A DNA stretch of 64,000 nt from Geobacteraceae bacterium. GTDB lineage: Bacteria > Desulfobacterota > Desulfuromonadia > Geobacterales > Pseudopelobacteraceae. Under the pieces are notes generated by a model, which saw only the letters and a list, made by a program, of their open reading frames with translations, did no database searches and had not been told where the DNA came from. The translations under genes were made by a program, and so were the position numbers. Location: positions 1 to 64,000 of the forward strand of contig JAAXTM010000001.1 in the NCBI GenBank assembly GCA_013336525.1. The letters are read 5' to 3'. Shown piece by piece: positions 10,113 through 31,167 of this stretch. Position 1 is the first letter of the stretch. Every line of letters starts with the position of its first letter.

Positions 10113-10113
10113 C

Positions 10114-11167: not shown

Positions 11168-11845
11168 TCAAGCAGATTGAATATAGCGGATAATCGGGGC
11201 TGACCCTTTTACCGCCAGCGCGGCGCAGTAACCTTCCGGAACGGTAACATCCATAAGAGTCCACTTAGTCAGGTTATCAGGCGAGATCAATACGGCGGGA
11301 GTTTCCTGGTGCAGACTGACATCAAAACTGTTTGACCGCAACGCAAATCCCATCCCGCAGGCTTTCAAATAGGCTTCCTTACGGGTCCAGCAGCGATAAA
11401 ACGCTCTTCTTTGTAGGTGGTCTGGAAGGGCGAAGAGTTCTTTCTGTTCACGTGGGGAGAAAGCGAGCCGGGCCATGTCAGGGACAGGCGTGTCATCGCG
11501 GAGCTGTTCGATGTCAATGCCGACTTCGCGGTCTGACACAACCGCGAGAATAAACAGTGCGCCAGAATGTGACAGGTTGAAGTGCAGCCGTCCGTTGCCG
11601 GAAAGATGCGGTTTGCCATGTTCGCCGACGGCAAAATGAAGCTCATCCGGCTGTACCCCCGGATATCCCCCCAGAATTTCCCTCAATAGCCCGCGACCTG
11701 CCATGAAACTGTTTCTTTTGTTTGGATCAAGCAGGCGGTCAGCTCTCAAAACCTCATCTGAAGAGAGATAGTGTGAGGCTCCGGCGGCAAGAGGCAGGCA
11801 GTGGATGTGTACCTCGTTATCCTCTGGCCATGGAAACGGAATCAA
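11168..11845 (-). CDS. 4'-phosphopantetheinyl transferase, Sfp type
   Basis: A 225-residue enzyme that should load the phosphopantetheine arm from CoA onto the three ACP domains of the Pfa synthase, filling the PfaE role. The diagnostic motifs are clear: GKPHL, FNLSHSG (about residue 90), the magnesium-binding VGIDIEQL (about 108-115), and CWTRKEAYLKACG (about 150). The start is TTG at 11845, overlapping the oleD stop (TTGA), and no other start keeps the N-terminal domain. It is the last gene of the eight-gene minus-strand run. Position at the end of a pfa-ole operon makes its target almost certain, although this is inference. Confidence 0.93.
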   Translation of the reverse strand: MIPFPWPEDNEVHIHCLPLAAGASHYLSSDEVLRADRLLDPNKRNSFMAGRGLLREILGGYPGVQPDELHFAVGEHGKPHLSGNGRLHFNLSHSGALFILAVVSDREVGIDIEQLRDDTPVPDMARLAFSPREQKELFALPDHLQRRAFYRCWTRKEAYLKACGMGFALRSNSFDVSLHQETPAVLISPDNLTKWTLMDVTVPEGYCAALAVKGSAPIIRYIQSA

Positions 11846-12837
11846 CTCTTACCCGCCGGAAACGATTGTCGTAACAGCTCCAAACCTTCATCAATGGAAA
11901 TCTCCGGCTGGTAGCCGAAATCGCGCCGGGCGGCATCGATGTTGAACCAATGGGCGCTGGCCAGTTCGTGGGCGACAAAGCGGGTCATGGGGGGCTCGCC
12001 TGAAAGGTGCAGCAGACTCCACAGCCCTTCACAAAGGCAACCGGCGGCGTATGCCAGCTTTGGTGAGATGGAGCGCGTCACCGGAGGGACACCGGCCGCC
12101 GCGAGGATGCGGTTGACCATCTCCCAGAGCGGCAGCGGTTCGTTGTTGCTGATGAAATAACAGTTGCCAGCTACAGGGCTGTCAGGGGAAAGCCTGTCAG
12201 CTGCCTGCAGATGGGCGCGGGCGGCGTTGTCTACGTAAACCGTATCCACCAGGTTGGGGCGGGAGCCGATGCGGCGCAGTTTGCCGGCTCGCCCTTTGGC
12301 GATAATACGCGGCACCAGATGATTGTCATCCGGACCCCAGATCAGATGAGGTCTTAAAGCCGTAACTGACAGTTCAGGTGAGTTTGCCGCAAGTACCAAC
12401 TGCTCGGCAAGCGCTTTGGTTGCAGGGTAGTGGGCCTCGAAGCGCGGTGGATAGGGGAGTGATTCATCGCCACCCTCAACATCGCTGCCGTCGAAGACGA
12501 CGCTTGGTGAGCTTGTGTAGACCAGTCTGCCGATGCTGTTGCTCCGGCATGCCGTCAGGACATTTTCGGTGCCGACTACGTTGGCACGGTAGAAGTCATC
12601 GTAACTCCCCCAGATTCCGGCCTTGGCCGCCAAGTGAAAAACTATATCGCAGCCGCTGGCTGCCTTGATCACCGCCTCACGGTCCGCCAGGTCGCCCTGA
12701 AATTGTTCCGCGCCCAGCTTTGCCAGGGCAGGGTGCTCACCACGGGAGAAACTGCGCACCTGATCGCCACGTTCACGCAGCATCCGCACAATCACCCCGC
12801 CGAGAAAGCCGCCGCCACCGGTAACAAGCGCCTTCAT
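11842..12837 (-). CDS. oleD: OleD, 2-alkyl-3-ketoacid reductase (short-chain dehydrogenase)
   Basis: A 331-residue NADPH-dependent reductase of the extended SDR family that reduces the OleA product, a 2-alkyl-3-ketoacyl acid, to the 2-alkyl-3-hydroxy acid. Visible are the Rossmann motif MKALVTGGGGFLGG at the N-terminus, the serine strand YTSSPSVVF, the catalytic YPATK and LRPHLIWGPDD. The ATG at 12837 overlaps the oleC stop as ATGA; seven upstream codons in the open frame are dropped. OleD is known to act with OleB and OleC in a large assembly, and its neighbours here are in the canonical order. Confidence 0.93.
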   Translation of the reverse strand: MKALVTGGGGFLGGVIVRMLRERGDQVRSFSRGEHPALAKLGAEQFQGDLADREAVIKAASGCDIVFHLAAKAGIWGSYDDFYRANVVGTENVLTACRSNSIGRLVYTSSPSVVFDGSDVEGGDESLPYPPRFEAHYPATKALAEQLVLAANSPELSVTALRPHLIWGPDDNHLVPRIIAKGRAGKLRRIGSRPNLVDTVYVDNAARAHLQAADRLSPDSPVAGNCYFISNNEPLPLWEMVNRILAAAGVPPVTRSISPKLAYAAGCLCEGLWSLLHLSGEPPMTRFVAHELASAHWFNIDAARRDFGYQPEISIDEGLELLRQSFPAGKS

Positions 12838-14474
12838 GAAAGTTTTTTCTTCGCCCATATCGCCAGTTTTTCTCTGAATATCTTGGCATTATGGCGGATA
12901 TCGACCGGGAAAGCGGGGTGGAAGAGGATCTTCTGAATGCTCTTTGTGTGGGGATAGCGACTGCCAAGGTCGAGCAGCTCTTTGCGGATAAGCTCCTGTC
13001 CGGTCTTGTCTGCCTTTGTCTCAAGCTCGACGCAGAGCACCGGCTGTTGGCTCCCCTTCATTCCCACTCCGACCAGCGCCGTACGGAAGACCTTGGGATG
13101 GGTATTGAAGACTCCTTCCACCGGAATGGTGAAGAGAGTTGATTTGGATGTAATCACACGGTGGGCCTTGCGACCGCAGAACCAGATCCGGCCTCTGTTG
13201 TCGAGATAGCCGAGATCACCCATGCGGTGCCAGACGGTGCCGGATGGATCCGGTATCTTTGCGAGTTTGGTCGCCTCTGGCCGGTTAATGTAGGTTGTGC
13301 TGACCTGCGGCCCACGCACGGTAATTTCGCCAATTTCCCAGGGGGGAAGCGACATGTCGTCACTCCATGCATCAATAGGGCTATCGGTTATCGGAATAAT
13401 GGCTACGGAGATGTTTTTTACCGGTTTGCCGACACAGACACCGTACCCTTCGCCGGTCATGGTTGCGGTTTTACCCAGCACATCTCTGCTGCCGATGGAA
13501 CTGACCGGCAGCGCCTCGGTTGCACCGTATGGTGTAAAAATCTCGGCATTATCGGGCAAAATGGATGCAAAACGCTCCAGTACCGAAGCTGACACAGGTG
13601 CGCCGGCAGAAATCACCCGTTTGAGATTCGGCATTTTGATGCCGTTCTTTGCGGCGTAGCGTCCAACACGATTCAACAGAGCCGGGGAGCCGAACATGGT
13701 TGTGGCGGAATATTCGGCGGCAGGTCCAAGAATCTGGCGGGGATCGACGGTCCCCGGGCGAGTAAAATCCATCTGCGGAATCAGGGCGGTCATGCCGAGA
13801 GCAGGGGCAAACAGGGCAAAAAGTGGAAAAGTGGGCAGATCAATCTCGCCGGGGCGGATATCGTAGAGCTCACGCAGGGAGTCAACCTGTGCCGCAAAAG
13901 TGCCGTGGGTGTAGACGGCTCCCTTGGGGGGGCCGGTGCTGCCGCTGGTAAAAAGGATGGCAGCCGTGTCGTCGCAGAGTGTGTCAGCAGGTGAAAAGTG
14001 GAGATCGCCAATCTCCGCACAACGTACCTCATTAAGCGGTACTCCGCCCCAGATGGAACCTCCGCCGACGACAACCGTGAGGCGGATGCTGCTGCGCCCC
14101 CAACCGAGGAGACGCCGTGCCAGATGCGCCTTGGGAATCCCGATGAAGGCTTCCGGTTTGGCCTCTGCCAAACATCCCTTCATGTTGCGTGCGCCGATGC
14201 CCGGATCGATGAATACCGGAACGGCACCGGCTTTGAAAAGGGCAAAGGTCAGGGCAAACAGCTCAGGGGATGGCGGCACCAGCAGGGCTGTTTTCATCCC
14301 CCGTCCGATGCCGAGGCGCAAAAGGCCCCGCGCAATACGATCACTTTCCTGATCCAGCTCCAAAAAGGTCAGCGTGCGTCCTTTCTGCGGGAAGATGATG
14401 GCTGGGGTGTCAGGCTGGAGTCTTGCCATCTCGGACAGAGGGCGGGAGATATTGACGATATCCGGTGAGTTCAT
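12834..14474 (-). CDS. oleC: OleC, beta-lactone synthetase (AMP-dependent ligase fold)
   Basis: A 546-residue ANL-superfamily enzyme which in the olefin pathway adenylates the beta-hydroxy acid and closes it to a beta-lactone. The ATP-binding loop ILFTSGSTGPPKGAVYTH lies near residue 185. Then come the ADP-binding FTPYGATEALP, the hinge region GRIWFCGRKAHRV and a short C-terminal domain. The N-terminus MNSPDIVNISRPLSEMA is the usual OleC start. The start ATG shares one base with the oleB stop (TAATG at 14476-14472); 43 further codons in the open frame lie inside oleB and are rejected. Expected length for the family is about 540-570. Confidence 0.93.
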   Translation of the reverse strand: MNSPDIVNISRPLSEMARLQPDTPAIIFPQKGRTLTFLELDQESDRIARGLLRLGIGRGMKTALLVPPSPELFALTFALFKAGAVPVFIDPGIGARNMKGCLAEAKPEAFIGIPKAHLARRLLGWGRSSIRLTVVVGGGSIWGGVPLNEVRCAEIGDLHFSPADTLCDDTAAILFTSGSTGPPKGAVYTHGTFAAQVDSLRELYDIRPGEIDLPTFPLFALFAPALGMTALIPQMDFTRPGTVDPRQILGPAAEYSATTMFGSPALLNRVGRYAAKNGIKMPNLKRVISAGAPVSASVLERFASILPDNAEIFTPYGATEALPVSSIGSRDVLGKTATMTGEGYGVCVGKPVKNISVAIIPITDSPIDAWSDDMSLPPWEIGEITVRGPQVSTTYINRPEATKLAKIPDPSGTVWHRMGDLGYLDNRGRIWFCGRKAHRVITSKSTLFTIPVEGVFNTHPKVFRTALVGVGMKGSQQPVLCVELETKADKTGQELIRKELLDLGSRYPHTKSIQKILFHPAFPVDIRHNAKIFREKLAIWAKKKLS

Positions 14475-15370
14475 TAAACCTGTTCCGTCCGGCCAAGAAA
14501 TTCCGAGACCAACGGTATAACCGCATCTTTGGCGTCTTCGAGGATATAGTGGCCGCAATCCGGGTAGCTGTGGACTTCGGCATGAGGGAAACGCTGCCGC
14601 CATTCGGCGAGGAAATGCATGTCGAAGACAAAATCCAGCTCACCCCAGCAGATCAGCATCGGCAGGTTTTTGAACTGTCCGATCCCGTCGGAAACGGCGC
14701 TGACCAGATCGTAAGCCCGGTCGCCGGGCGCCAGCGGAATGTCCTGTACGAAACGGAGGGTGGCGATGCGGTTCTGCCATGTGTCGTAAGGGAGTTGGTA
14801 GAGGGCGCGCAGTTCAGCATTCATCGGGTTACGTTTGCATCCTACATAGGACGCGCCGGCGCTGAAAGCGTTGAAGCCGCGCACCAGCAGCGTGCCGAGC
14901 ACCGTATCCCTGCAGATGCGCAGGCCGAGCGGAAATGGTTTTGTTGTGGGTAGATGGAACGCGCCGGTGTTGAGAATCACCAGTCGTTTGATCCGCTCGG
15001 GGTGGCGTACGGCATAGGCCATGCCGATCATGCCGCCCCAGTCGTGGACGACCAGAGTGATGTTTTCCGTAACACCAAGCTGCTCAAGGAGCTTTTCCAG
15101 GTCATCGACCCGGCGCGAAAGGGTGTATTCATAACGGTCATCACCCGGTTTGTCGGAGAAGCCGCAGCCGATGTGATCCGGGACGATGCAGCGGTAGCGA
15201 TCTCGAAGTGCCAGTACGAGATTGCGGTAGTAGAAAGACCAGGATGGGTTGCCATGCACCATTACCACCGGTGCGCCTGAACCTTCATCCAGATAGTGGT
15301 AGTTAAGGCCATCAAGATTAAGGCGTTTTCCGCTGAACGGATATTCCTTTTTCAGTACATCGCTTACCAT
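14474..15370 (-). CDS. oleB: OleB, beta-lactone decarboxylase (alpha/beta hydrolase)
   Basis: A 298-residue haloalkane-dehalogenase-like alpha/beta hydrolase that decarboxylates the beta-lactone to the cis-olefin. The nucleophile elbow is VVHDWGG, with Asp110 instead of Ser as in OleB and the dehalogenases. The oxyanion segment HGNPSWSFYYRN and the C-terminal catalytic His in PDCGHYILEDA (about His274) complete the triad. The ATG at 15370 overlaps the oleA stop by seven bases. Here OleB is a separate polypeptide; in some Gram-positive bacteria it is fused to OleC. Confidence 0.93.
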   Translation of the reverse strand: MVSDVLKKEYPFSGKRLNLDGLNYHYLDEGSGAPVVMVHGNPSWSFYYRNLVLALRDRYRCIVPDHIGCGFSDKPGDDRYEYTLSRRVDDLEKLLEQLGVTENITLVVHDWGGMIGMAYAVRHPERIKRLVILNTGAFHLPTTKPFPLGLRICRDTVLGTLLVRGFNAFSAGASYVGCKRNPMNAELRALYQLPYDTWQNRIATLRFVQDIPLAPGDRAYDLVSAVSDGIGQFKNLPMLICWGELDFVFDMHFLAEWRQRFPHAEVHSYPDCGHYILEDAKDAVIPLVSEFLGRTEQV

Positions 15371-16407
15371 TCAGCCCCCAACATCAGACAGTTAAGTCCG
15401 CTGCCGATCCCGAGGAAAGCAACCTTGTCGCCAGCTTCCAGAATGTCTCGTTCATCGGCAATAGCGGCCGTCAGCGGCAGGGATACAGATCCCATGTTGC
15501 CGAGATATTCGTAGGTTGTGAAGTCTTTTTCCGGCGGGATATCGAGTGTCTTGAGAATCGCACTTTGATGGGCGGAGCCGACCTGATGGCAGATTACCTG
15601 ATCAACATCCTCGGTTTTCCAGCCGACCTGCGGAAGGAACGCATCCCAGGTGCGGCGACCCAGCTCGACACCGTAGTTCATGACATTGACTCCATCCGTT
15701 GACATCGACTGAAGATAGCCACCCTTGCCGTCCGGGGTTACGCCCCAGAGGCAGAGCCGGTGGTGTTCCGGGGCGGACTGGGTAATGCCGCCAAGCAGTT
15801 GGCGCCTCGAAGCACCCGAAAAGGAGCCGTCTGTCAGCAGGATTGCTACGGCACCGGAACCGCCGGTCAGGGTCGCCAGTGAGGCGGCAAAGTGCTGCAT
15901 CGTCCGCTCTTCTAGCATCCGGGCGATCATGATGTCGTTGATCTCGCGGGCGCTCTCGCAGGAGACCACCAGACCGGCCTTGATCTGTCCCAGCTCGATC
16001 CGGTTGGCCACGTCGAGGATGCCGTTAAGCACACCGAGACAGGCATTGGAGAGGTCGAACACGGCAGCCTTGCCGCCGATGCCGAGTCCGGCGGCGACGC
16101 GGCAGGCGGTGGCCGGCTCAAACTGCTCACGGCAGACCCCTGCGTAGATCAGCGCTCCAATATCATCGGGAGAAATACCGGCGGATAACAGTACCTTTCT
16201 GGCAGCGGCAATGGCGCCATGGGAGAGCGGATAGCCCGGTTCCCACCAGCGTCGTTCCCGGATTCCGGTCAGTGCCTGCAGTTGCCCCGGTGCAATACGC
16301 AGGTAACGGTACAGCGGTTCCAGTCGGGCTTCCAGTTCGGTCGAGGTAACAACAACCGGTGCCAGTTCATATCCCATTGCTTCAATGGTTACTTTTCTGT
16401 ATTTCAT
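15364..16407 (-). CDS. oleA: OleA, head-to-head acyl-CoA condensing thiolase
   Basis: A 347-residue thiolase-fold enzyme that joins two fatty acyl thioesters by non-decarboxylative Claisen condensation, the committed olefin step. The nucleophile is Cys123 in DLSNACLGVLNG, the general base candidate is Glu97 in EQFEPATACR, and the His and Asn of the thiolase active site are in HQVGSAHQ and LGNMGSVSLP. The ERRWWEPG segment near residue 51 is characteristic of OleA rather than of FabH. The ATG overlaps the stop of the pfaC-like gene as ATGA, so translation is coupled to the PUFA synthase. That placement suggests the Pfa product is its substrate. Confidence 0.94.
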   Translation of the reverse strand: MKYRKVTIEAMGYELAPVVVTSTELEARLEPLYRYLRIAPGQLQALTGIRERRWWEPGYPLSHGAIAAARKVLLSAGISPDDIGALIYAGVCREQFEPATACRVAAGLGIGGKAAVFDLSNACLGVLNGILDVANRIELGQIKAGLVVSCESAREINDIMIARMLEERTMQHFAASLATLTGGSGAVAILLTDGSFSGASRRQLLGGITQSAPEHHRLCLWGVTPDGKGGYLQSMSTDGVNVMNYGVELGRRTWDAFLPQVGWKTEDVDQVICHQVGSAHQSAILKTLDIPPEKDFTTYEYLGNMGSVSLPLTAAIADERDILEAGDKVAFLGIGSGLNCLMLGAEW

Positions 16408-19400
16408 CCTAAAGACTCCATGGTTACGGTAAAATCATTCATCTGATAGATTAACTTTCCGTCGACGGCAAGAAAGCCATCCGCAGTCAAAATACGCCGC
16501 TCTTCATCCACGGCGGTGATCCAGGCGCTCACCGTTACCCGGCTGTTGGTCGGTACAACCTGACCGCGATACAGCCAGCTGTGCTTCCGCTCCAGTGCTA
16601 CGGCAGAGACGATGTTGCCTTCCTGCCAACCCCAGCGCTCTACGGCGGCGAACTTGACGAGCTGCAGGAAAGATTCCAGCCCCAGTGAACCGGGGGTGAC
16701 CGGGTCTTCATAGAAGTGCGCTTTGAAGAACCATTCATCCGGATCGACATCCTTGATACTGCGAATGTAGCCAAGCCCCTGCGGGCCTCCGTCAGGCACG
16801 AACAGTTCAATCCGGTCGATCATGCGCAGCTGCTTTTCAGGGAAAGGTGCGGTTTCAGGGTAGGGGAGGTTTCGGCCCCGCTCTGACTCCTCCGTTGTCG
16901 GCTGGTATGGTTTTGCGTCGCGGATGCCGACCTGGTTGGCCAGAGCCTCTTTGGCAAAGAAGCCGAACATGGTATCCCCTTCATAGAGAATTCCGTGACG
17001 GTCGGCAACGCTGAAATCGAACTCCTGGATGATCATGCCGCCGCTGGTGGCAACCTTTTTCATCGTGGCGCAGCAGGTCAGAGTCCCGCTCTCTGGAGTC
17101 ACGGTCCGGTGCTGAACGGCGCTGCCTCCAAGGTTGCGGAAAGAGATGTCACTCGGACTGGTCAGTGCTGAACCTACATAGGCGGCAAGCCAGCCGCACG
17201 GCTGCAGTGCAGCTTCCAGAAGGACGGCAAAGGGCATGCGCGCCTGACGTTCGGCGGCAAAGAACCAGGCATCGGTCGGAAGATCGTATTGAGCTTCAAC
17301 CATGGCCCCGGCGGTCATCTGCCACGGTTCGCCGCGTACGGCGGTAACCCGGTCCATAAACTGGAAAGGGGGTCCCGGCAGGCGGGCGATTTTGCGGTCC
17401 TTATCAAAAACGCGGTAGCGCTCACCGAAACCTTCGGAGGGGTTGCCGTTACTGTAGGCGAGGATCTGCTCCTTGGTATAGATGGCCGGTTTGACGGAGA
17501 TCTTCTGCACAGCGTCTCTGTTCCAGATAGCAGCCAGTTTTTCTTTTGTCGTCCCGGTCAGGCGGGCCGACATGCTTGTGATCTCCACGATCGGCTTGCC
17601 GTCGGCATACATGAGGGCGTCACAGATAACGTACGGCTCCGGACGGTAGCCAATTTCGCGTATTGTGACTTCATAGGTAACGACTTTGGTGTTTTCCAGA
17701 ACCTGTCCGCGGCAGCAGAGCTTGCTGGCCACACCCGGCACCGGTTCCCATACGGAATCCTGTAATTCTGCCACCCACCCCAGCCGCAGCAGATAAACCC
17801 GCAAGGTATGCATGCAGCATTCGTACATCAAGGTTCCCGGCATGACCCGGTCATCGACAAAATGGCAGGTGATAAACCAGTCGTCGGGGTGGATATCGGC
17901 CTCGGCCCGGATGATGCCGATGCCGCAGCGTCCGCCGTTTGGATCTATCTCGTTGACCCGGTGCACCAGGCGCATCCTGCCACCCGGAATAGTCAGCGGA
18001 CGGGCAAGCGGCAGATCGGCGAACAGGGCGCCAAAGCAGCCGGCCAGGTCGCCGTTCCGTAAACGGTCGAGCTGTTCCGCATCGTACCCCTCGCGTGCCA
18101 TCGGTACTAGCTCCTGCCAGTCGGCGGGACGGATTCCGGTCGTGGGGCGCAGATCCAGAGCAGGCCTCACGATCCCTTTGCCGGCATCGAGCTCCTGCTG
18201 GCTGAAGAAGCCGGCGCAGCCGTCGCGCATGGACAACAGCGGCTGCCCATTCACCGTAGCCTCGAAGAAGAAGCGGAACAGCCAGGTGTCTCCCTGGCGG
18301 AAGAAACGTTCGATATGGATATCGTAATGGATCGTTTCGTCCGGACCGGGCAGGCCGCAATGAAAGGTGACCACGGCGTCGAGCAGGCGGTAGACCGCCA
18401 GGCCGCGGGTTATGAAGTCGATGCCGAGATAGCCGGACAGGAACAGGTCTGCCTGACCAGCCTCGACGGCGATGCAGGTAGGAATGCGTCCACCGTCCAG
18501 ATACCAGGAGCCTGGGTGGATGTCATGCTCGGTGACGACACGGCCATGGGTCATGGACTTGGGCTCGCCTTCGACGGAGATGATGCGATCTACCAGCATG
18601 AGCGGTTCATCCGGCAGGCGTACGCGGGTCGGAAAACTGTCGGCTTCGGCGAAGTCAGAGCCAAGCATGAGGGCTACAGAGCCGATTGCGAACTCCATGC
18701 ACATGTCGCGGTTAAACGCAACTTCAGGCGCGGATGTGATGTTACTGCTTCGCACACCAGCTGAATTCTGAGCGCAGTCAAGCGGTACATCATCCCCCAA
18801 CGCCTGCCGCAGGGTCATTTCAAGTTCCATTGCCTGGGCCATGGATTGGGTGACAGCCTCGCTGAAATCCAGAAAGGCCTTGTGTGCCCAAATCTGCTCC
18901 TGTTGCGCCCGGGCAAATTCATCAAGAAGCGAATCCGTACTGCTCTTGGTTCCCTCTCCATGAGGGAGAGGGCTAGGGTGAGGGGTTGCCTTGGATGAGA
19001 TTGCCGGGAGTGGCGGCTGGAACGGCATGCCACCTATAGCCACCTTGACCGTAACCGTTTTCGAGTTTGTGTGAGTCTCGGCATGTGGCTCATCGAATAA
19101 CGGTGTCAAATCCAGCGGCACCCGTTCGGCGATCAGGTTGGCCAGCAATCGCAGCATGATCGAAACAGGATCCTGTCCGGCGTAGCAGCCTGAACGGGCC
19201 AGATGTGGCCGGTCACCCAGAATGCTTCCGATCATGCGGCTGCAGGATGCTCCCGGGCCCATTTCGAGAAAAATGCGTACGCCGTTGCTGTATGCCGATT
19301 CGATCACCGCCGGGTAGTCGATGCCGTGCAGCGCCTGGCCGAGAATGGAGGCTGCGGCACTTTCGCGGGTGACCTCAAAGGGGCCGCCCTTGACGCCGCT

Positions 19401-22400: not shown

Positions 22401-23252
22401 GCCTTTTATTATGCCGTAGATCCGGTCGCCCTGGGCGACGGCGTCTGCAGTCCGCTTGAGCAGAAAGAGTCCGGCACCTTCTCCTACGACAAGACCGTCA
22501 CCGGCAGCATCAAAAGGCGAGCAGATGCCGCGTTTCGAGAGAGCGCGGAGCTGGGAGAAACCCATCTGGGTATAAAGAGGGTCGGGGCGTGAAAGTCCAC
22601 CGGTCAGCATGGCATCGGCCCTGCCGGAGAGGAGTTCTTCTACCGCCAGCTTGATAGCATATAGCGAGGAGGCACAGGCGGCATCGAGGGTGAAGTTGCC
22701 TCCTCCCAATCCTAGAGCCTGGGCCAGAATTCCGGCGGGGAGGCCGGCTACGTATTTATTGAATGGGGAGGTTGGTGCGGGCGTAGCACCATGTCCGGTA
22801 AGTTTTTCCTCAAAAGTCCTGCCAAGCCAGTTGCGGGCCAGCAGTGTTGATGTTTCACTCGGCAACGCCAGGTTGCCGATAATTACGCCGACCCGCGAGC
22901 GGTCGAGCGATGTGGTGACGCCGTCTTCAAGAGCACGTTTTCCGGCATGAATCAGCAGGTGAAAGAGCGGGTCGAGCCCTTCCAGGCGGGCCGGATCGAT
23001 GGCAAGACCGTCCAGTGTGGCGGCGTCAGGTAATTGATCGATGAAACAGCCGCGCCGTGAATAGACATGATCCGGGGCTCCTGCAGCCGGATCGAAAGCT
23101 TCATCAGCCGGGATCTGCCAGCGGCCTGCAGGTACATCGCGGGTTGCGCTCCTGCCGCTGCGGATATTTTCCCAGAAGCTGTCAAGATCCGGCGCATCGG
23201 GAAAGATGCCGCCGATCCCGACAATAGCCACTGATGGAGTTGAAACCGGCAT
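16404..23252 (-). CDS. pfaC: Pfa synthase PfaC-like / Pfa3-like subunit: KS-CLF-AT-DH-DH
   Basis: A 2282-residue megasynthase subunit. In order: a ketosynthase from residue 1 with active Cys in LDAACASSLYAI (about 192) and HATGTPVGDAVEV; a chain-length-factor domain from about 475, whose active-site position reads FTQSSEESSGV without cysteine; an acyltransferase (about 1045-1330) with FPGSGNHYSGMG and VIGYSLGESAG, in the role of PfaB; then two FabA-like double-hotdog dehydratases (about 1535-1900 and 1960-2280) with CHFVDDRVMPG and AHFYEDPVTPG. The ATG at 23252 shares a base with the pfaA stop. A low-complexity segment near residue 1428 comes from an inserted repeat. Placing AT inside this subunit resembles myxobacterial Pfa3, but no terminal acylglycerolphosphate acyltransferase domain is present. 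Confidence 0.92.
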   Translation of the reverse strand: MPVSTPSVAIVGIGGIFPDAPDLDSFWENIRSGRSATRDVPAGRWQIPADEAFDPAAGAPDHVYSRRGCFIDQLPDAATLDGLAIDPARLEGLDPLFHLLIHAGKRALEDGVTTSLDRSRVGVIIGNLALPSETSTLLARNWLGRTFEEKLTGHGATPAPTSPFNKYVAGLPAGILAQALGLGGGNFTLDAACASSLYAIKLAVEELLSGRADAMLTGGLSRPDPLYTQMGFSQLRALSKRGICSPFDAAGDGLVVGEGAGLFLLKRTADAVAQGDRIYGIIKGIGLANDVGGSLLAPMSEGQLRAMRAAYKKAGWKPGDVDLIECHATGTPVGDAVEVASLKQLWDGAEGDKNCCVIGSVKSNIGHLLTAAGGAALTKVLLAMQAGTLPPTANYNTPQPGMELEQSPFRVLNTPEPWLRRTDNTPRRAAISAFGFGGINAHLLVEEWLPAASAEGCSNIPEIISSPEKASSSPIAVVGMAADFGPWNNLRDFQERVLGGDPATEPTKPGKWWGADGSNWFHQEGLDRTPFRGFYHADVAIAPDRFRIPPREMEEMLPQQLLMLQTAAAAMQDAGLDREDNLNTGVFIGIALDLNSTNFSLRWSLAGQAAEWAKEMGRELSAEELAAWTKQLREATGPALSANRTMGALGSVVASRIAREFRVGGPSFTQSSEESSGVRSLETAVRLLQAGELDRALVGSVDLAGDLRAVLGHHALRPLSPSGRALPFDHSADGSVIGEGATALVLKRLADAERDGDRIYAVIRGIGSSGGDLQPGGDIAYGHALERAYADAGVSPATVGYLEANAGGNGDEDRREAMALASFFDIESMADRSCAVSSVKADIGHSGAASGLASIVRACLALHQEIIPACRGIEQPYNELTSSGPLFVPQSSSYWLHNRADMPRRAGVSSCGIDGSCSHVVLEGRDSQPPETSSDRVAPLGGDTEFIFALAGNSPDDVKVELDILHSNILTNKDNNLCELARNSNAHYTASADKPLAMALVARNRDELEALIEQGKRTLAAGGLPPDTVPALRDRLFYSPTPLGRDAKIAFVFPGSGNHYSGMGMELFSRWPEILRRQNTENLYLRSQFQPELFWNGAPNSEIDNNHRAVIFGQVATGCAVSDLVRSFGVQPSAVIGYSLGESAGLLALRAWQDRDAMYSRMQESTLFTHDMAGECRAARQTWGLGENETVNWSLGVVQAQAAEVRRLLADIPRAYLLIINTPDECVIGGDAAAVEKLVTRLDCRFFPLKGVTTVHCEVAEAVSVPYHDLHLFPTEAPAGITYYSGVKGGPFEVTRESAAASILGQALHGIDYPAVIESAYSNGVRIFLEMGPGASCSRMIGSILGDRPHLARSGCYAGQDPVSIMLRLLANLIAERVPLDLTPLFDEPHAETHTNSKTVTVKVAIGGMPFQPPLPAISSKATPHPSPLPHGEGTKSSTDSLLDEFARAQQEQIWAHKAFLDFSEAVTQSMAQAMELEMTLRQALGDDVPLDCAQNSAGVRSSNITSAPEVAFNRDMCMEFAIGSVALMLGSDFAEADSFPTRVRLPDEPLMLVDRIISVEGEPKSMTHGRVVTEHDIHPGSWYLDGGRIPTCIAVEAGQADLFLSGYLGIDFITRGLAVYRLLDAVVTFHCGLPGPDETIHYDIHIERFFRQGDTWLFRFFFEATVNGQPLLSMRDGCAGFFSQQELDAGKGIVRPALDLRPTTGIRPADWQELVPMAREGYDAEQLDRLRNGDLAGCFGALFADLPLARPLTIPGGRMRLVHRVNEIDPNGGRCGIGIIRAEADIHPDDWFITCHFVDDRVMPGTLMYECCMHTLRVYLLRLGWVAELQDSVWEPVPGVASKLCCRGQVLENTKVVTYEVTIREIGYRPEPYVICDALMYADGKPIVEITSMSARLTGTTKEKLAAIWNRDAVQKISVKPAIYTKEQILAYSNGNPSEGFGERYRVFDKDRKIARLPGPPFQFMDRVTAVRGEPWQMTAGAMVEAQYDLPTDAWFFAAERQARMPFAVLLEAALQPCGWLAAYVGSALTSPSDISFRNLGGSAVQHRTVTPESGTLTCCATMKKVATSGGMIIQEFDFSVADRHGILYEGDTMFGFFAKEALANQVGIRDAKPYQPTTEESERGRNLPYPETAPFPEKQLRMIDRIELFVPDGGPQGLGYIRSIKDVDPDEWFFKAHFYEDPVTPGSLGLESFLQLVKFAAVERWGWQEGNIVSAVALERKHSWLYRGQVVPTNSRVTVSAWITAVDEERRILTADGFLAVDGKLIYQMNDFTVTMESLG
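18952..18985 (-). repeat. REP-like palindrome inserted in the pfaC reading frame
   Basis: CCCTCTCC / GGAGAGGG (18952-18972) followed by CTAGGGTGAGGGG matches, with one base changed, the intergenic repeat at 46458-46490. In the pfaC frame it encodes TPHPSPLPHGEG, the well-known translation of this class of dispersed palindrome. It lies in the linker between the acyltransferase and first dehydratase domain, where extra residues can be tolerated. Confidence 0.75.
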
Positions 23253-26200
23253 CAGGCGGCTTCCTGTACGACGCACCCCGGCCCGGATAACTGATTACGC
23301 CTGAAAGCCAGTTCGAGTGAAGGGTCTATGACGCACTCGTAACCCTCCAGTCGGGCAATCAGTTTGCCTGTGTTCCGGTCGAGGAATTCAATGTCGGCCG
23401 AGGCGCCATGTTCCCGTTCTGCTGTCACACGGATGGCTATCTGGGCGCCATGGCCTGGAAAACTTTCCTGGAACTGGCGGTAGCGCCCGGCAAACGAGGG
23501 GAGAGAGCCGGAGCCAAAGCGTTCAAAACTCCACAGAATCATCAGCTGAAAGGCACAATCCATCACGAGCGGATCAGTGATCCAGCTGTTTCTTAGTGGC
23601 TGCCTGACCCATTTTGAAGGTTCAGGAGCGGCTTTTACCAGTGCGGAAATACCCTTTGACGAACAACCGCCGACCTGTTCGATACCTTGCAGGTATGGTC
23701 CGTGGAAAAGGCGTTCATGATCATAAATAGAGCCACTGTCGTGTGGATATGGTGTGGTCGGTAGATCTACAATAGAACGGATGCCTTCCATCAGTTTTGT
23801 GGTCAGGACAATCTCGGCGCGTGCGTGAAGAATGGAGCGCCCGTCACTGGAAGTGCTGGTCAACTCAACAGGAACGTAATGCAGCGAGTCACGCTTTTCA
23901 GCCCGACCGGCCAGAACATGCAGGATGCATGGGGAGGTCTGTTCGAAGGTAACCCCTTTGCAGATACGAAGATCATTAAAACCATGGAAACGGAAACCGG
24001 GGTTGCCGTGCAGTGCACCATGAGCCAGCCACTCCACAATCATGGCCATCGGCAGTACGGCTTTGCCGTCAATCACGTGCGAACGGATAAAGGGATAATC
24101 ATCAACCGTCAGGGTCAGGCTGAAGGCCTCTGCTAAAGGCCTGGCCGCTGATGTCACTGTGACTGAAAGAGGTTTTTCTCCTGTCTCGGCCAATGCGACG
24201 ATTTCAACCGGTGCATCCATTGCGGCAATTTCCCTGGCGAGCAGTTCTCCGCCGGCTGCAAGCCTGATCAGGCCGATCCCTTCACCACTGAAAACCTTTT
24301 TGAGCGCGGGCGTGACCATGCCGCCATCCCACGGCCCCCAGTTAATGCAGACGGTACGGCATGCGGGGCGACGGCGTGACTCGGCCTGAGCCATTTTGTT
24401 GAGGACTTCGTTGGCAACGGCGTAATCCACCTGACCACTCCGTCCGAAGCGACCGGTGGTTGAGCCAAACAGGGCAATAATGCGGAGGTCGTCGCTGCCG
24501 GCAGCAGCAAGAAGAGAGCGCAGCCCTGATACCTTGGTGCTGTAAACGGAGGCAAACTGTTCCACGGTTTTGTCGTTGATCAGCCGGTCTGCCAGAACGC
24601 CCGCCCCATGAACAATACCCCGGATGGGGCCATGCTCCTGACGGATCGTCTGGAACAGGCTGCTGACGGCATCGTTATCGCGGATATCACATGCACGGTA
24701 GAGGGCATGCCCGCCAATCGCCTCAATAGCGGCGAGAGTCGCTTTCAGCTCTCTTCCGGCGATGACAGCGTGGTAACGTTCTTCAATATCTTTAGGATGA
24801 AGTTTGCCCGGCGACTGTTGGAGGATGGCTTTTTTAATGTCACTTTCACCGCTCAGTGGTGTAAGCCATGCAGGTTCAGGTTGCGGTTCCTGACTGCGAC
24901 CGAGCAGGACCAGCGTCGGGCGGTACGCTTTGGCAAGGGCGATTGCGGCGGCGGCGGTAACGCCGCGACCACCTCCGGTTATGACAACGACATCTCCCGG
25001 TTGCAGAGGTGGCGTTGAAGGGTTGATCAATGCAGGGAGATCAGCCGGTGCAAGGGTAATGCGTCCGGCAGGTTTCAGGCCCAGTTCGACCGGTCCGGTC
25101 AGAAAAAGTTCTTCAGCCAGTGCGTGAACAGCGGCTGATGTATCCGGAAAAGCCCCTAGATCAATGGCCTTACAGGTTACTTCGGGCCATTCATGGGCTG
25201 CGGTTTTAGCTAGTCCGGCCAGACCGCCGGAGAGCGGGTCGACCAGATTCGAACCGGTGTCAAATGCAAAAGCACCGTCAAGGCGTGAAACAGTACTGAA
25301 AAATGCTCCACCCTCGGCTGCAGAGCGGCGCAGGGATGGTGCGGCTTTTTTCAGCAGCAGGAAAGCATTCTCCAGGAAGCTGTCGTCAGATCCGGCTGCC
25401 GGGGCGATGATCACCAGTCCCGAGATGGCATCCAGCGGCAATTTGTCCAGTTTTTCGTCAACTTTGACCAGGCGCACAGCGCGGCCCTGATCGCTCAGGA
25501 TGGAACAGAGCTCGCCTGAGAAGGAGGAACCGTCATCAGTAATCCAGATGGTGCCATTATCCGCTATCTGAAATGTTTCGTCGCTGCGTGAGAGTAAAAC
25601 CGGGACGACAGTGCTGCGATTAAGTACGCTCGTGCGTTCGGATTCCTGTTCGGCAACAGTCACCGTAGCGGCACCGGACTGTTTAAGGGGGGCAGCTGCC
25701 CCCTGTTCCAAAAAACATGCAATCTCACCAAGTGTATGCAGGGAACCCAGGTGCTCCGGGCCGATGACCGGCGATCCTGGCAAACGCTCCTGCAGGGCGG
25801 AAAGAATTTCAACCCTTTTGATAGAATCAATACCGAGGTCTGAATCAAGCCCCATTTCGAGCTCCAGCATCTCAACCGGATAGCCGGTTTTCTCGCTGAC
25901 AACCGCAAGCAGGGTTTCACTTACATTGTTTGCACCAGGTGACTGAACAGACGCACTTGATCCGGCAGTCATGCCGGCGCCGAGATAAGCGGCGATCTCA
26001 CCAAGGGTATGCAGGGAGCCCAGATGCTCCGGGCCGATGACCGGTGAACCGGGCAAACGTTCCTGCAGGGCGGAAAGTATTTCAACCCGTTTGATGGAGT
26101 CGATGCCGAGGTCTGAATCAAGCCCCATTTCCAGTTCCAGCATTTCAATCGGGTAGCCGGTTTTCTCGCTGACAACCGCAAGCAGGGTCTCTGTTACATT

Positions 26201-29200
26201 GTTTGTAACCGGCAGTTGTGCGGTGACTACAGAAGGCATGCCAGCGCCGAGGTAGCTGGCTATCTCTCCTAATGTATGCAGGGAGCCCAGCTGCTCCGGG
26301 CCGATGACCGGTGAACCGGGCAAACGTTCCTGCAGAGCGGAAAGTATTTCAACCCGTTTGATGGAGTCGATGCCGAGGTCTGAATCAAGCCCCATCTCCA
26401 GTTCGAGCATTTCAATCGGATAACCGGTTTTCTCGCTGACAACTGACAGCAGACTCTCTGTGATCCTGTCACTGTTTACCGCCGGGACTGAAGGCGCCGA
26501 TGCAGGCATGGCCAAAACCGGCTGTGAAACCGGGGCTGCCACAGGAGTTGTTGCTGATGGTGCAGCCGCCGGGGCAGAGAATGACGTTGTCGGCAGCGGT
26601 GATCCCACGTGAAGGATACGGCTCTGCTGTTCCAGCAGGGTCTGAATCGTCCTGCTCGCGGTTTCCTGGCCTTCAAGAAAGCGGCGGTGAAGCTGGGCCG
26701 TGTCTTCCTGCATCTTCTGCAGTACTGACATTCCCTCCCTGGTGATCCGCAGGGAATCGGCCAGGATATCACGTGAAGCGGGGCTGCCGGCGGGAGCGGC
26801 GGACGGTCCAGAAGTAATGTTTGGTAATGACGGTTGAAAAGCGGCTTGTGGTGCAACCGGGGCGCTCGGCGCACGTTTTTGTCTTGGCTTGACGTAGTTA
26901 GCGCCACAGATTGGAATTGTCATGGCCGGTTTTTTTGCATTGGCCTGTTTCGGCGGCGTATAACCTTCATCCCATTTGACAAGCTGTGCAGAGTGGCCAA
27001 GTACGGCAATTTGAGCCAGACAGCGGGCCAGATCAACCATGCCGGAGTGTTTGCCGCTCGAGGCGTCAACCGCCACAACGGTGTATGCGTTGTCGCCGAG
27101 AATCGACTTGACCAGACCGCTCAACCTTGAGCCGGGGCCTACTTCTACAAATGTTTTAACACCGGCGGCGTACATTGCCTCTATTTCAGCCACAAACTCC
27201 ACCGGCTTTGCCAGCTGTCCTGCCAAAAGTTCCTTGGCGGCGGCTTCGTTGGCCGGGTATTCGGCGGCTGTTGTGTTGGAAAAAACCGGAATATTGCCGG
27301 CGACAAGCTGCATGCCGGACAGAGCAGCCAGGAGTGGTGCAGCGGCATCGGCAACCAATGAACTATGGAAGGCGGCGGCAACCGGCAGCTGTTTGCAGAC
27401 CAGTTTGCGAGAGTTGCAGGCCGAAACGGCCCGGGTGATTTCGTCACTTTTGCCGGAAAGAACAAATTGGGCAGGGGCATTGCAATTGGCAATGACCAGA
27501 TCGAGCTTTTCTTCTTCAATCAGGCATTTAACGTCTGCCAGTGGTGCGGAGACAGCAAGCATACTGCCTTTATCCCCCTTTCCGTCTGCCATAAGCTGGC
27601 CGCGCAGTCGTGAAAGGGCATGAAACGAGGTTTCTTCCAGGCGTCCGGCAGCGCAGAGAGCGGTCAGTTCACCGTAACTGTGGCCGGCTGTTGCTTCCGG
27701 GGTAATACCAAATGTTTCCAGTACCCGCAGGGCACCCAGGCTGACCGAACCTATGGCTGGCTGGGCAATATCTGTGGCTCGCAGAGCCTCTTCCTGCTGT
27801 TTTAAGCCATCCTGGGCGAAGGCAGAAGCCGGATAGATCAGGTCGGTCAGGCGTGTACTGGTTGCATGGGAGAAGCCGCTCTCTGCAGCAGTGATAGTCG
27901 CTATCATCTCGGGGAAGGTACAGGCCAGGTCACGCAGCATGCCGGTGTACTGGGCGCCTTGACCTGGAAAAAGTATGCCGAGTTTGCCGGCTACCGGTCC
28001 GGCGGCAAAGTAGGCTCCGTCCGGGCTGTTCCAGGCAGTTGTCGAGTTCTTGCGCAGCATGGCCAGGGCATTGGCGCAGAGTGATTTAAGGTTGGTCTTG
28101 TTCCGTTCTACTACCAGCACCAGACGACAGGGGGCTGCTGCGTCGAAGTCGGCACGCAGAGCAGAGGCCTGTGCCCGCATTTCTTCCCAGGACTGTTCAT
28201 TGCTGAAAGCAGAAAGTGCCGTTTCCAGGGCTGCTGCATCGACCCCAGAAAATGCCAGGATCTGGACGTTGCCATCCCAGTCGGCCTTGCTGTCAGTTGG
28301 CCGGTACTCCTCCAGCACGGTATGAAAATTGGAACCGCCGAAGCCGAAGGCACTGACCGCCGCACGACGCGGAGCACCGGGAGAAATCCAGGGGCGCTTT
28401 TTAGATGTGATATAGAAAGGGGTCGCGCCATCCGAAACTTCCTTGAGCGGCTTATCTACCTTGATGGTAGGAGGGAGAACCTTGTGATGAAGGGCAAGCG
28501 CCGCTTTGATCAAACCGGCTGCTCCGGCGGCTGCCTTGGTGTGTCCAATCTGAGATTTAACAGAACTGAGTGCGCACCACGGTTTGTCTGCCTCGCCGTA
28601 TATCTCACGCAGGGCTGACACTTCTACTGCGTCACCAACCTTGGTGCCGGTGCCGTGTGCCTCCACCAGACCGATACTTTCCGGGGTGATTCCTGCACGC
28701 TGATATGCGTCAATGATGGCTTTTTTCTGGCCGGAGGCACTCGGGGTGTAGATCGCTTCACCTTTGCCGTCACTGGAGGAACCAACGCCGCGTATAACCG
28801 CATAGATCCGGTCTTTGTCGCGTTCCGCGTCGGCAAGTCTCTTGATGACAACGAGGCCGAGCCCCTCGCCCAGAATTGTGCCGTCGGCGTTCGCATCAAA
28901 TGGTTTGGCGTTGCCTGAGGCGGAAAGTGCCGGGGTTTTACTGAAGCACATATACATAAAGATGTCGTTGAAAGTGTCAATCCCGCCGGTGACCACCATG
29001 TCTGATTTGCCTGTGGCCAGTTCCATGCTGGCAAGATGCAGTGCGCTGAAGGAACTGGCGCACGCGGCATCTACCGTACAGTTGGTACCGCCCAGGTCGA
29101 ACTGTTTGCTGATCCGTCCCGCAACGACATTTCCGAGCAGGCCCGGAAAGGAATTCTCCTGCCAGGGGACATAAGAATCGGAGATCCGCTGAACTACGTC

Positions 29201-29707
29201 TGCGGCGGTTGTGTCGTCTACACCGGCATCCTTCAGTGCCTCACGCCAGTGGGGGTGGCCAAGGCGTGCCCCCAGAGGTATTACCAGCTCAAGAGTGCCG
29301 GTAACACCAAGTATGACGCTCACACGGCCACGGTCATAGTCGCGGTCGGCACCGTAACCGGCATCCCGTAGAGCCTGTCCGGCAGCTACGAGTCCGAGGA
29401 GCTGGGAGGTGTCGATAGCCTCCAGGGTAGCGGGGGGAATGTTGAATTCCATCGGGTTGAACGGGATTGAGGAAAGAAATCCGCCCCGTTGTCCGTAGGT
29501 CATATCGGGAGCTGCCGGATTCTGGTTGTAATAATCGGCGACGTGCCAATGGGTTGGCGGGATGTCGGTAATCGCGTCGATTCCTTCGCGGATGTTTGCC
29601 CAATAGGCGCTGCTGTCTTCAGCCTGTGGAAAATGACAGCCGATGCCGATAATTGCCAGAGCTATCCCGTCAGCGGGAATATTACTATCCAATTCTTCCT
29701 GTTTCAC
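23252..29707 (-). CDS. pfaA: Pfa synthase PfaA-like / Pfa2-like subunit: KS-AT-ACPx3-KR-DH
   Basis: A 2151-residue iterative polyketide-type synthase subunit for long polyunsaturated acyl chains. Domains in order: ketosynthase (1-460) with VDAACASSFSALHLA, HGTGTKVGDAVEV and GHTKAAAGAAG; malonyl-type acyltransferase (about 545-870) with FPGQGAQYTGML and AGHSYGELTAL; an Ala/Pro linker; three tandem ACPs (about 1075, 1165 and 1255 onward), each with LGIDSIKR carrying the phosphopantetheine serine; ketoreductase (Rossmann motif VVVITGGGRGVTAA near 1577); and a C-terminal PKS-type dehydratase with SHVIDGKAVLPMAM near 1882. The GTG start at 29707 overlaps the pfaD stop and has AAGGAGT upstream. Confidence 0.93.
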   Translation of the reverse strand: MKQEELDSNIPADGIALAIIGIGCHFPQAEDSSAYWANIREGIDAITDIPPTHWHVADYYNQNPAAPDMTYGQRGGFLSSIPFNPMEFNIPPATLEAIDTSQLLGLVAAGQALRDAGYGADRDYDRGRVSVILGVTGTLELVIPLGARLGHPHWREALKDAGVDDTTAADVVQRISDSYVPWQENSFPGLLGNVVAGRISKQFDLGGTNCTVDAACASSFSALHLASMELATGKSDMVVTGGIDTFNDIFMYMCFSKTPALSASGNAKPFDANADGTILGEGLGLVVIKRLADAERDKDRIYAVIRGVGSSSDGKGEAIYTPSASGQKKAIIDAYQRAGITPESIGLVEAHGTGTKVGDAVEVSALREIYGEADKPWCALSSVKSQIGHTKAAAGAAGLIKAALALHHKVLPPTIKVDKPLKEVSDGATPFYITSKKRPWISPGAPRRAAVSAFGFGGSNFHTVLEEYRPTDSKADWDGNVQILAFSGVDAAALETALSAFSNEQSWEEMRAQASALRADFDAAAPCRLVLVVERNKTNLKSLCANALAMLRKNSTTAWNSPDGAYFAAGPVAGKLGILFPGQGAQYTGMLRDLACTFPEMIATITAAESGFSHATSTRLTDLIYPASAFAQDGLKQQEEALRATDIAQPAIGSVSLGALRVLETFGITPEATAGHSYGELTALCAAGRLEETSFHALSRLRGQLMADGKGDKGSMLAVSAPLADVKCLIEEEKLDLVIANCNAPAQFVLSGKSDEITRAVSACNSRKLVCKQLPVAAAFHSSLVADAAAPLLAALSGMQLVAGNIPVFSNTTAAEYPANEAAAKELLAGQLAKPVEFVAEIEAMYAAGVKTFVEVGPGSRLSGLVKSILGDNAYTVVAVDASSGKHSGMVDLARCLAQIAVLGHSAQLVKWDEGYTPPKQANAKKPAMTIPICGANYVKPRQKRAPSAPVAPQAAFQPSLPNITSGPSAAPAGSPASRDILADSLRITREGMSVLQKMQEDTAQLHRRFLEGQETASRTIQTLLEQQSRILHVGSPLPTTSFSAPAAAPSATTPVAAPVSQPVLAMPASAPSVPAVNSDRITESLLSVVSEKTGYPIEMLELEMGLDSDLGIDSIKRVEILSALQERLPGSPVIGPEQLGSLHTLGEIASYLGAGMPSVVTAQLPVTNNVTETLLAVVSEKTGYPIEMLELEMGLDSDLGIDSIKRVEILSALQERLPGSPVIGPEHLGSLHTLGEIAAYLGAGMTAGSSASVQSPGANNVSETLLAVVSEKTGYPVEMLELEMGLDSDLGIDSIKRVEILSALQERLPGSPVIGPEHLGSLHTLGEIACFLEQGAAAPLKQSGAATVTVAEQESERTSVLNRSTVVPVLLSRSDETFQIADNGTIWITDDGSSFSGELCSILSDQGRAVRLVKVDEKLDKLPLDAISGLVIIAPAAGSDDSFLENAFLLLKKAAPSLRRSAAEGGAFFSTVSRLDGAFAFDTGSNLVDPLSGGLAGLAKTAAHEWPEVTCKAIDLGAFPDTSAAVHALAEELFLTGPVELGLKPAGRITLAPADLPALINPSTPPLQPGDVVVITGGGRGVTAAAAIALAKAYRPTLVLLGRSQEPQPEPAWLTPLSGESDIKKAILQQSPGKLHPKDIEERYHAVIAGRELKATLAAIEAIGGHALYRACDIRDNDAVSSLFQTIRQEHGPIRGIVHGAGVLADRLINDKTVEQFASVYSTKVSGLRSLLAAAGSDDLRIIALFGSTTGRFGRSGQVDYAVANEVLNKMAQAESRRRPACRTVCINWGPWDGGMVTPALKKVFSGEGIGLIRLAAGGELLAREIAAMDAPVEIVALAETGEKPLSVTVTSAARPLAEAFSLTLTVDDYPFIRSHVIDGKAVLPMAMIVEWLAHGALHGNPGFRFHGFNDLRICKGVTFEQTSPCILHVLAGRAEKRDSLHYVPVELTSTSSDGRSILHARAEIVLTTKLMEGIRSIVDLPTTPYPHDSGSIYDHERLFHGPYLQGIEQVGGCSSKGISALVKAAPEPSKWVRQPLRNSWITDPLVMDCAFQLMILWSFERFGSGSLPSFAGRYRQFQESFPGHGAQIAIRVTAEREHGASADIEFLDRNTGKLIARLEGYECVIDPSLELAFRRNQLSGPGCVVQEAA
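25730..26460 (-). repeat. Three near-identical tandem ACP-coding repeats
   Basis: Three direct repeats of about 270 bp (spacing 273 and 267 bp between equivalent points at 25835, 26108 and 26375) encode the three ACP domains. The protein core from VVSEKTGYP to the end of SLHTLGEIA differs at only a handful of residues between copies. Such repeats can gain or lose units by recombination. Confidence 0.85.
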
Positions 29708-31167
29708 GAAAGATACTCCTTGATTTGTGTGTACTCGAGCGGTTTAACATTTAAAGCTTCCAGCGGGAGCTGGATACCCTGATAACGGAGGATATTGGCA
29801 CGGGTCAGCATCGCCGCGCCTAAGAGGATATTCAGGGCAACTATTGAAACGGCACGCCGTGCGGGGCCTTCCAGAAAACTGCCGCTAACCCATTCATTGA
29901 AGGCGCCCATGGCCGGGCCGCACCAGACCTGATAGTCGATCTTGCGTGAACTCTCGCCGTCTTTGGCCCAGTGGGCCGCCTGCCCCAGATACCAGCGAAA
30001 AACGAGCGCCATAAGGTGTTTCGGATCGCGTTCGGCACGCTCAACCTGGCGCGGGTCACGTTCCATAAAAAAACTGCGAGTGTTCTGCCAGACATCATTC
30101 AAGCTTACCTGAAAAATTGTTTTTTCCAATTTATCACGTTCCGTGGCCGGGATATCATCGATACAAGCATAGGCACGGTAGATCTCGTACAGTTTGGCTG
30201 CCCGCATCGGAAACATGGTGCCACGTTTCAGAACCTGCACGGTGACCCCCATCTCGAACATATCGGCAGCAGGCGCCATGCTTACATCGGCCTGGCGTGT
30301 CTCGGCGAGCATTTTTCGCACTTCGTCGGATGTGCCGGATTCGATGCACGACTGGTTAACCGATCCGGTCATGATATAGGCGGCGCCCATGGCAAAAGCG
30401 GCTGCAGCCGCGGCCGGGGTGGCGATTCCGCCGCCAAGACCGGCACGAAGTTTCAATGAGTAACCATATTTCGCCTGCATACGTACCGCAACACTCTGGA
30501 TGGTCGGGAAGAGGGCGAGGGCCGGTCGATTGTCGGTATGGCCGCCGGAATCCGCCTCTGCGGTGATCTCCTGAGCCATGGGGATATGTGCGGCAAGTTC
30601 GGCCTGTTCCGCGGTGATGGCGCCTTCGGCAACAAGTTCCATCAGGAGCTTTTCAGGTGGAGGGGAGAAGAACTTTTCAGCCAGCTCTTCTCGCGAAACC
30701 TTGGCAATAATTCTGTTCGGGACGACAATGGTACCGTCAGCCAGTCGATGAATGCCGTGGGTCCGGTAACGGACCAGATTCAGAGTCAGAGCAAGAAAAG
30801 CCGATGCTTCGACGATTCGCACACCCTTGCGGATGTATAATTCGGTCAGGGCTTTTTCAAGATCCGGTTCTTGCGGAGAGTGAATCAGGTTGAAACCACA
30901 GGGGAAGTTGGCGCTGGCAAGACGATCTACCGCGGCCTCAACGACACTAAATGGCAGTCCGGCTGCGCCGAAGAAACCGAGCATTCCGGCTCGGCCTAAT
31001 TCCTCAACCATTGCAACTGAGCTGATCCCCTTGGCCATGGAACCACCCAGATATGGATAACGAAGGCCAAGGTCAGAGCAGAAACCTGGGTCACCCAATC
31101 GTTCGCAGATATTTTTCAAACTTTCTGAGGTTCCGAGTTCGTAATTTTGTATTGATAATGCTTCCAA
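29704..31167 (-). CDS. pfaD: PfaD-family trans-acting enoyl reductase
   Basis: A 487-residue FMN-dependent TIM-barrel enzyme of the PfaD / PksE family, the trans-acting enoyl reductase of Pfa synthases. Visible are the nitronate-monooxygenase-like start of the barrel (LGGSMAKGISSVAMVEELGRAG), the substrate-binding EADSGGHTDNRP, the FMN phosphate-binding GLGGGIATPAAAAAAFAMGA and GSVNQSCIESGTSD. In marine bacteria pfaD follows pfaC; here it comes first, as in myxobacterial pfa1. The start is TTG at 31167 with CTGGAG eight bases upstream; no ATG or GTG nearby fits. It overlaps pfaA by GTGA. Confidence 0.93.
   Translation of the reverse strand: MEALSIQNYELGTSESLKNICERLGDPGFCSDLGLRYPYLGGSMAKGISSVAMVEELGRAGMLGFFGAAGLPFSVVEAAVDRLASANFPCGFNLIHSPQEPDLEKALTELYIRKGVRIVEASAFLALTLNLVRYRTHGIHRLADGTIVVPNRIIAKVSREELAEKFFSPPPEKLLMELVAEGAITAEQAELAAHIPMAQEITAEADSGGHTDNRPALALFPTIQSVAVRMQAKYGYSLKLRAGLGGGIATPAAAAAAFAMGAAYIMTGSVNQSCIESGTSDEVRKMLAETRQADVSMAPAADMFEMGVTVQVLKRGTMFPMRAAKLYEIYRAYACIDDIPATERDKLEKTIFQVSLNDVWQNTRSFFMERDPRQVERAERDPKHLMALVFRWYLGQAAHWAKDGESSRKIDYQVWCGPAMGAFNEWVSGSFLEGPARRAVSIVALNILLGAAMLTRANILRYQGIQLPLEALNVKPLEYTQIKEYLS

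Follow-up and report, generated by a model that had tools for sequence, protein, structure and literature searches.

What does a polyunsaturated fatty acid (PUFA) synthase make when its genes run, each overlapping the next, into those of a head-to-head olefin pathway? The question is posed by the 64,000-nucleotide stretch analysed here (the window: positions 1 to 64,000 of contig JAAXTM010000001.1, assembly GCA_013336525.1, Geobacteraceae bacterium), whose minus strand carries, from 31167 down to 11168, pfaD, pfaA, a pfaB/pfaC fusion gene, oleA, oleB, oleC, oleD and the gene of a phosphopantetheinyl transferase (PPTase). To judge from the genes, the run is very probably a Type I (deltaproteobacterial) pfa-ole operon giving a hydrocarbon of the hentriacontanonaene (C31:9) type, probably as its main product. 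Both the arrangement and the hypothesis that such a synthase feeds olefin formation are already published. Yoshida 2016 (PMC4882568) describes the tandem pfaD, A, B, C, oleA, B, C, D, pfaE of G. bemidjiensis, which makes C31:9; Shulse and Allen 2011 (PMC3098273) characterize Type I clusters by a pfaBC fusion, place them in Deltaproteobacteria (Geobacter, Desulfuromonas, Pelobacter) and one Planctomycete, note that ole genes are often linked to them, and propose that they may supply olefin precursors. What is added here is the scale of co-inheritance, followed through 141 genomes, which suggests a dedicated hydrocarbon role.

The sequence-only reading had proposed eight minus-strand genes with seven overlapping junctions. 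Contents and coordinates (Table 1) are borne out by open reading frames (ORFs), Pfam domains and curated family models, and all seven junctions do overlap, by 4, 1, 4, 7, 1, 4 and 4 nt in gene order, when the most plausible starts are used. For oleC, oleD and the fusion gene the mechanically called ORF probably starts too far upstream: oleC most likely begins at ATG 14474 (TAATG, sharing 1 nt with oleB) rather than at 14603, the fusion gene at ATG 23252 (TGATG) rather than at GTG 23276, and oleD at ATG 12837 (ATGA) rather than at 12858; a later oleC ATG, at 14429, leaves a gap to oleB. Co-directional genes with overlapping junctions are the marks of a single operon, and they are preserved in the nearest relative, G089 (G and L numbers label the genomes and loci compared), at 7/7 junctions (4, 1, 1, 7, 1, 4 and 4 nt). 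The proteins of the two clusters are 75-98% identical; ratios of nonsynonymous to synonymous substitution (dN/dS, Nei-Gojobori type) run from 0.03 (OleA) to 0.18 (PPTase), so that all eight genes are under purifying selection; and the G089 cluster adjoins the same HDOD and HSP90 genes as that of the window.

Table 1. The eight genes of the run, in order of reading, with coordinates in the window.
Feature	Coordinates	Strand	Remarks
pfaD, enoyl reductase	29704..31167	-	487 aa; TTG start
pfaA, megasynthase	23252..29707	-	2151 aa; GTG start; 4 nt overlap with pfaD
pfaB/pfaC fusion	16404..23252	-	2282 aa from ATG 23252; ORF opens at GTG 23276
oleA, head-to-head acyl condensing thiolase	15364..16407	-	347 aa; 4 nt overlap with fusion gene
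oleB, beta-lactone decarboxylase	14474..15370	-	298 aa; 7 nt overlap with oleA
oleC, beta-lactone synthetase	12834..14474	-	546 aa from ATG 14474; TAATG, 1 nt overlap
oleD, 2-alkyl-3-oxoalkanoate reductase	11842..12837	-	331 aa from ATG 12837; ATGA overlap
Sfp-type phosphopantetheinyl transferase (pfaE role)	11168..11845	-	225 aa; TTG start; 4 nt overlap

Do the two halves of the run also travel together? In the 141 genomes of the order that were screened for PfaD and OleA, both are present in 90 and neither in 45; PfaD stands alone in five (G012, G085, G100, G112, G126) and OleA in one, G087 (Fisher p 6e-30, kinship ignored). The 95 genomes with PfaD include three that hold only fragments below the cut-off (G003, G107, G130), dropped matches being a single one in G021 (E 2e-4), a weak second one in G076 and second fragments in G003 and G130; the 91 with OleA include one below-cut-off fragment (G092). 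In 66/90 genomes PfaD and OleA share a strand in collinear order at a distance of 12.9 to 15.3 kb; in 24/90 they are on different contigs. They are collinear in 15/15 two-gene genomes assembled into about ten or fewer contigs (these near-closed genomes were picked by hand, from a table of rounded contig counts). Co-inheritance this nearly total, together with the collinearity, suggests that the Pfa synthase is dedicated to making hydrocarbon. It is an even bet that throughout the order the Pfa synthase is a dedicated hydrocarbon synthase without a PUFA of its own, that OleA is its release enzyme, and that pfa and ole are gained and lost together.

The source genome itself (3.5 Mb in 28 contigs, 99.96% complete) holds one PfaD and, above the respective cut-offs, one PfaA, one OleA and one OleC; two further KAS III proteins score under the OleA cut-off, and the stand-alone second oleA for which the sequence-only reading had advised a genome search is not found in this nearly complete assembly. 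PF01648 proteins number two, the PPTase of the window and one in a 130-aa frame that would fit AcpS. The operon contains no separate thioesterase gene (no search for one of the pfaT type was made in the rest of the genome); this and the lack of a second OleA or PfaA make hydrocarbon the probable main product. The proposal that the genes form a single operon making a long polyunsaturated hydrocarbon is accordingly supported from several sides: the overlaps, the single OleA and Pfa synthase, the co-inheritance of PfaD and OleA, and a published producer, G. bemidjiensis, whose genes stand in the same order.

The Pfa proteins are readily recognized. PfaD scores 611 bits with TIGR02814 (cut-off 449) and aligns to the PDB PfaD entries 6lkc (E 7e-165) and 4yx6 (E 2e-157). 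PfaA scores 1600 bits with TIGR02813 and has, by Pfam, the domain order KS-AT-3xACP-KR-PS-DH; its tandem acyl carrier protein (ACP) domains appear as three PF00550 stretches and three LGIDSIK motifs, and the active-site motifs searched for are present. The third gene had been read as pfaC-like; it does encode a second megasynthase, though not a lone PfaC: PfaB is fused to it, and one ORF runs through KS-CLF-AT into a FabA-like DH region (Pfam KS twice, AT, FabA three times). Its AT part aligns to solved PfaB 9ry8 (E 2e-40) and scores 121.4 bits with the PfaB model, below the 144.3 cut-off; its second KS, the CLF, reads QSSEESS, without Cys. KS, CLF and AT motifs are found in the fusion protein and two dehydratase active-site patterns are unmatched, at least one of them being too strict, with HFVDDRVMPG and HFYEDPVTPG visible in the translation. 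The pfaB/pfaC fusion, the tandem PfaA ACPs and the deltaproteobacterial host together point to the Type I secondary lipid (pfa-like) class. The PPTase scores 66 bits with PF01648 (cut-off 25) and 162 bits with the HetI model, under its cut-off of 370, and contains the motifs searched for.

OleA scores 497 bits with NF006720 (cut-off 285) and matches the 3fk5/3s21 family of PDB entries, which we take to be Xanthomonas campestris OleA, at E 2e-58 and 3e-57. Cys123, Glu97, His274 and Asn304, presumably the catalytic residues, are invariant in 12/12 aligned sequences (the window and 11 relatives); the Cys bears the same number as the one replaced in the active-site mutant C123A of Allemann 2019 (PMC6463001). 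OleC reaches 741 bits with NF006754 (cut-off 478) and has the motifs searched for; OleD has YPATK and GGGGFLG. OleB, with the motifs HDWGG and GHY, is an alpha/beta hydrolase nearest to haloalkane-dehalogenase models and identified by fold family and operon position, no OleB-specific model having matched. The presence of OleB is what separates olefin from beta-lactone clusters (PMC7064751), and by fold family and operon place the window cluster would be of the olefin type.

How might these proteins work in concert? The PPTase would arm the three PfaA ACPs, on which PfaA, the PfaB/PfaC fusion and PfaD would build a methylene-interrupted polyenoyl chain, predicted to be 16:4 n-3, as proposed for homologues. 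OleA would condense two such chains head to head, taking them straight from the ACPs; OleD would then reduce the product, OleC close a beta-lactone, and OleB decarboxylate it to a C31:9-type hydrocarbon. The OleA steps are modelled on Shewanella pealeana genes in E. coli, which show OleA linking both pathways and led to the conclusion that the in vivo OleA substrate is acyl-ACP (Allemann 2019, PMC6463001). We infer that C31:9 would be made by the source strain, and as its main product.

Several observations weigh against so tidy a picture. OleC scores 666 and 646 bits with the olefin beta-lactone synthetase equivalog models, below their cut-offs of 900 and 850, and OleD 463 (NF042422) and 421 bits, both below the 580 equivalog cut-off. 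Two of these strict OleC/OleD models are, by name, Xanthomonas and Shewanella types, and OleC and OleD are called homologues through best match and operon context. OleB, at best 158 bits, misses the haloalkane-dehalogenase cut-off of 241. Chain length is unreadable from sequence. Promoter-like matches are close to chance level (6 around pfaD against 6.2 expected; 10 in 10000-29000 against 6.9, sd 2.5). Terminator-like matches, which like the promoter-like ones count neither way, number 27 in the latter interval against 17.8 expected (sd 3.9), with short stems and nearly all within coding sequence; the longest such stem is found at 33017-32989, in the space separating the HSP90 and HDOD genes. 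In one genus, g14 (G014, G015, G016), PfaD and OleA are on different contigs; these genomes correspond by place to named loci L123, L121 and L126, in which no pfaC match occurs in the 7.9 to 10 kb preceding oleA, and the separation is probably real. OleC, above its cut-off in 89/90 genomes whose OleA passes its own, is not within 1.5 kb downstream of OleA in 37/89: 52 have it so placed, 19 carry it farther off on the contig of OleA or on the opposite strand there, and in 18 the two genes are on separate contigs (the G092 OleA fragment being excluded and one copy each taken for G094, G120 and G130). The distance is 11.6 kb in G119 and 273 kb in G124, and OleC above the cut-off occurs without an OleA above the cut-off in G010, G092, G100, G112 and G126. 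Because oleC is often displaced and because oleA appears to lie apart from pfa in one genus, the eight-gene operon is not universal.

What, then, of other readings of the same genes? The Pfa synthase might mainly make membrane or free PUFA, with the ole genes drawing off a side stream as they do in Shewanella that produce eicosapentaenoic acid (EPA). The domain set is after all that of a PUFA synthase, and the Shewanella enzyme does make EPA, the hydrocarbon being modelled as derived from an intermediate (PMC6463001); but PfaD without OleA is seen in just 5/95 genomes, each of them assembled into some 170 contigs or more, and the operon lacks a thioesterase gene of its own, so we consider this reading improbable. 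Somewhat less improbable, if still unlikely, is a product other than C31:9, whether through a different Pfa chain length, a mixed condensation of one Pfa and one ordinary fatty acyl chain, or a halt at the ketone or beta-lactone. Sequence does not reveal chain length or pairing; against this stands G. bemidjiensis, a reported C31:9 producer with the same gene order (PMC4882568), and a beta-lactone end product is made unlikely by the presence of OleB under purifying selection (dN/dS 0.105).

The least probable alternative, to which we give very little credence, is a recently acquired foreign island, possibly unexpressed. Cluster GC is 0.577 against 0.480 for the remaining window, and PfaD is absent from 14/39 same-genus genomes, one of which, G087, retains OleA. 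The same-direction contrast recurs, however, in 16/18 relatives compared (drawn from 80 named loci), by at least 0.05 in 12, and the GC at third codon positions of the eight genes (0.54-0.67) is inside the range of their neighbours (0.43-0.71); a horizontal island argued from GC is therefore set aside, and no claim of recent transfer is made. The shared HDOD and HSP90 neighbours in G089 and the purifying selection on all eight genes likewise speak against it.

Upstream of pfaD, a DUF4388-HDOD gene (31525-32898) was considered as a ninth member and dropped because 357 nt separate it from pfaD and a second copy, 90% identical, is present elsewhere in the genome (G000:C28:150551-151906). The similar block extends over about 1.45 kb (window 31437-32881), and the copy (L173) lies, by eye, beside genes resembling those of a methyl-accepting chemotaxis protein and a response regulator. 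On the other side, a Y1/IS200-type transposase-like gene (5771-6577) lies about 4.6 kb past the PPTase end.

More distant relatives are looser in their arrangement, some having small or larger gaps around oleA, and overlap is not universal. G031, of another family (OleA 79%, PfaD 74%, OleD 73% and OleC 62% identical to the window), keeps the gene order with gaps of some hundreds of nt, judged from match ends, flanking oleA; its PfaA has five ACP motifs against three in the window. The PfaA proteins of L144-L158 and L160-L163 have 1 to 5 by a simple pattern that diverged ACPs could escape. In G065 (L161 1309-7972) PfaA occupies two open frames of 1246 and 901 aa: a break, an assembly error or a true split. 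A further gene of the PfaD family lies outside the pfa-ole cluster of G051 (L159 18501-19814) and reaches a higher score, 670 bits, with the family model; it is only 47% like the window PfaD, with OleA unmatched in the 19.9 kb examined.

A scan of named genomes for OleA was followed through the best 80 of 542 confirmed loci, whose titles are mainly those of Geobacter and Desulfuromonas kin (the nearest named record, a Geobacteraceae metagenome-assembled genome (MAG), has an OleA of 98% identity). Upstream of oleA a pfaC match is found in 69 of these 80; three reach a contig end within 1.3 kb of oleA (L114, L139, L143), and in eight no pfaC occurs although the sequence upstream extends for at least 3 kb (L121, L123, L126, L127, L131, L135, L137, L140). 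L135 and L137 (Desulfuromonadales) have oleA, B, C and D and a PPTase-like match, without pfaC in the 10 kb upstream; a Planctomycetota MAG (L141) has pfaC, oleA, B, C and D. In Pelotalea chapellei (L074, 12017-21041) neither oleC nor oleD is matched in the 9 kb that follow oleB; in L149 and L147 (15893-19901) oleC/oleD are absent beside oleA, as apparently is oleB in L147; and a Desulfobacterales MAG (L138, 5554-8668) has a PPTase-like match between oleA and oleB, not at the end.

The near-total co-inheritance backs the 2011 proposal of Shulse and Allen with many more genomes of the lineage. Should the hydrocarbon prove to be the sole product, these anaerobes would offer a clean system for the role of C31:9 in cells without EPA or docosahexaenoic acid, and a compact 20-kb cassette for producing it in other hosts.

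Comparison with known systems shows how variously the two enzyme sets can be housed. In Shewanella the pfa and ole genes lie at separate loci. The sequence-only reading had spoken of separate loci for the two Shewanella systems; separation applies to some bacteria and not to others: ole genes are clustered with pfa or found elsewhere depending on the bacterium, and in Photobacterium profundum SS9 the two sets are adjacent on the chromosome, as in the window (PMC6463001), but form two operons with pfaT between. Shewanella, with pfaABCDE and oleABCD, shares both enzyme systems and the proposed chemistry with the window; it differs in its separate PfaB (PMC3098273), in also making EPA, and in a thioesterase, pfaT, whose gene is linked with pfa or ole (PMC6463001). 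Xanthomonas campestris has the same four-enzyme head-to-head OleABCD pathway, with OleA structures that match, but draws its chains from a type II fatty acid synthase (PMC6463001). The window cluster has its like in Geobacter bemidjiensis Bem, a strict anaerobe of the Geobacter lineage with the order pfaD-A-B/C-oleA-B-C-D-pfaE, for which C31:9 is reported (PMC4882568).

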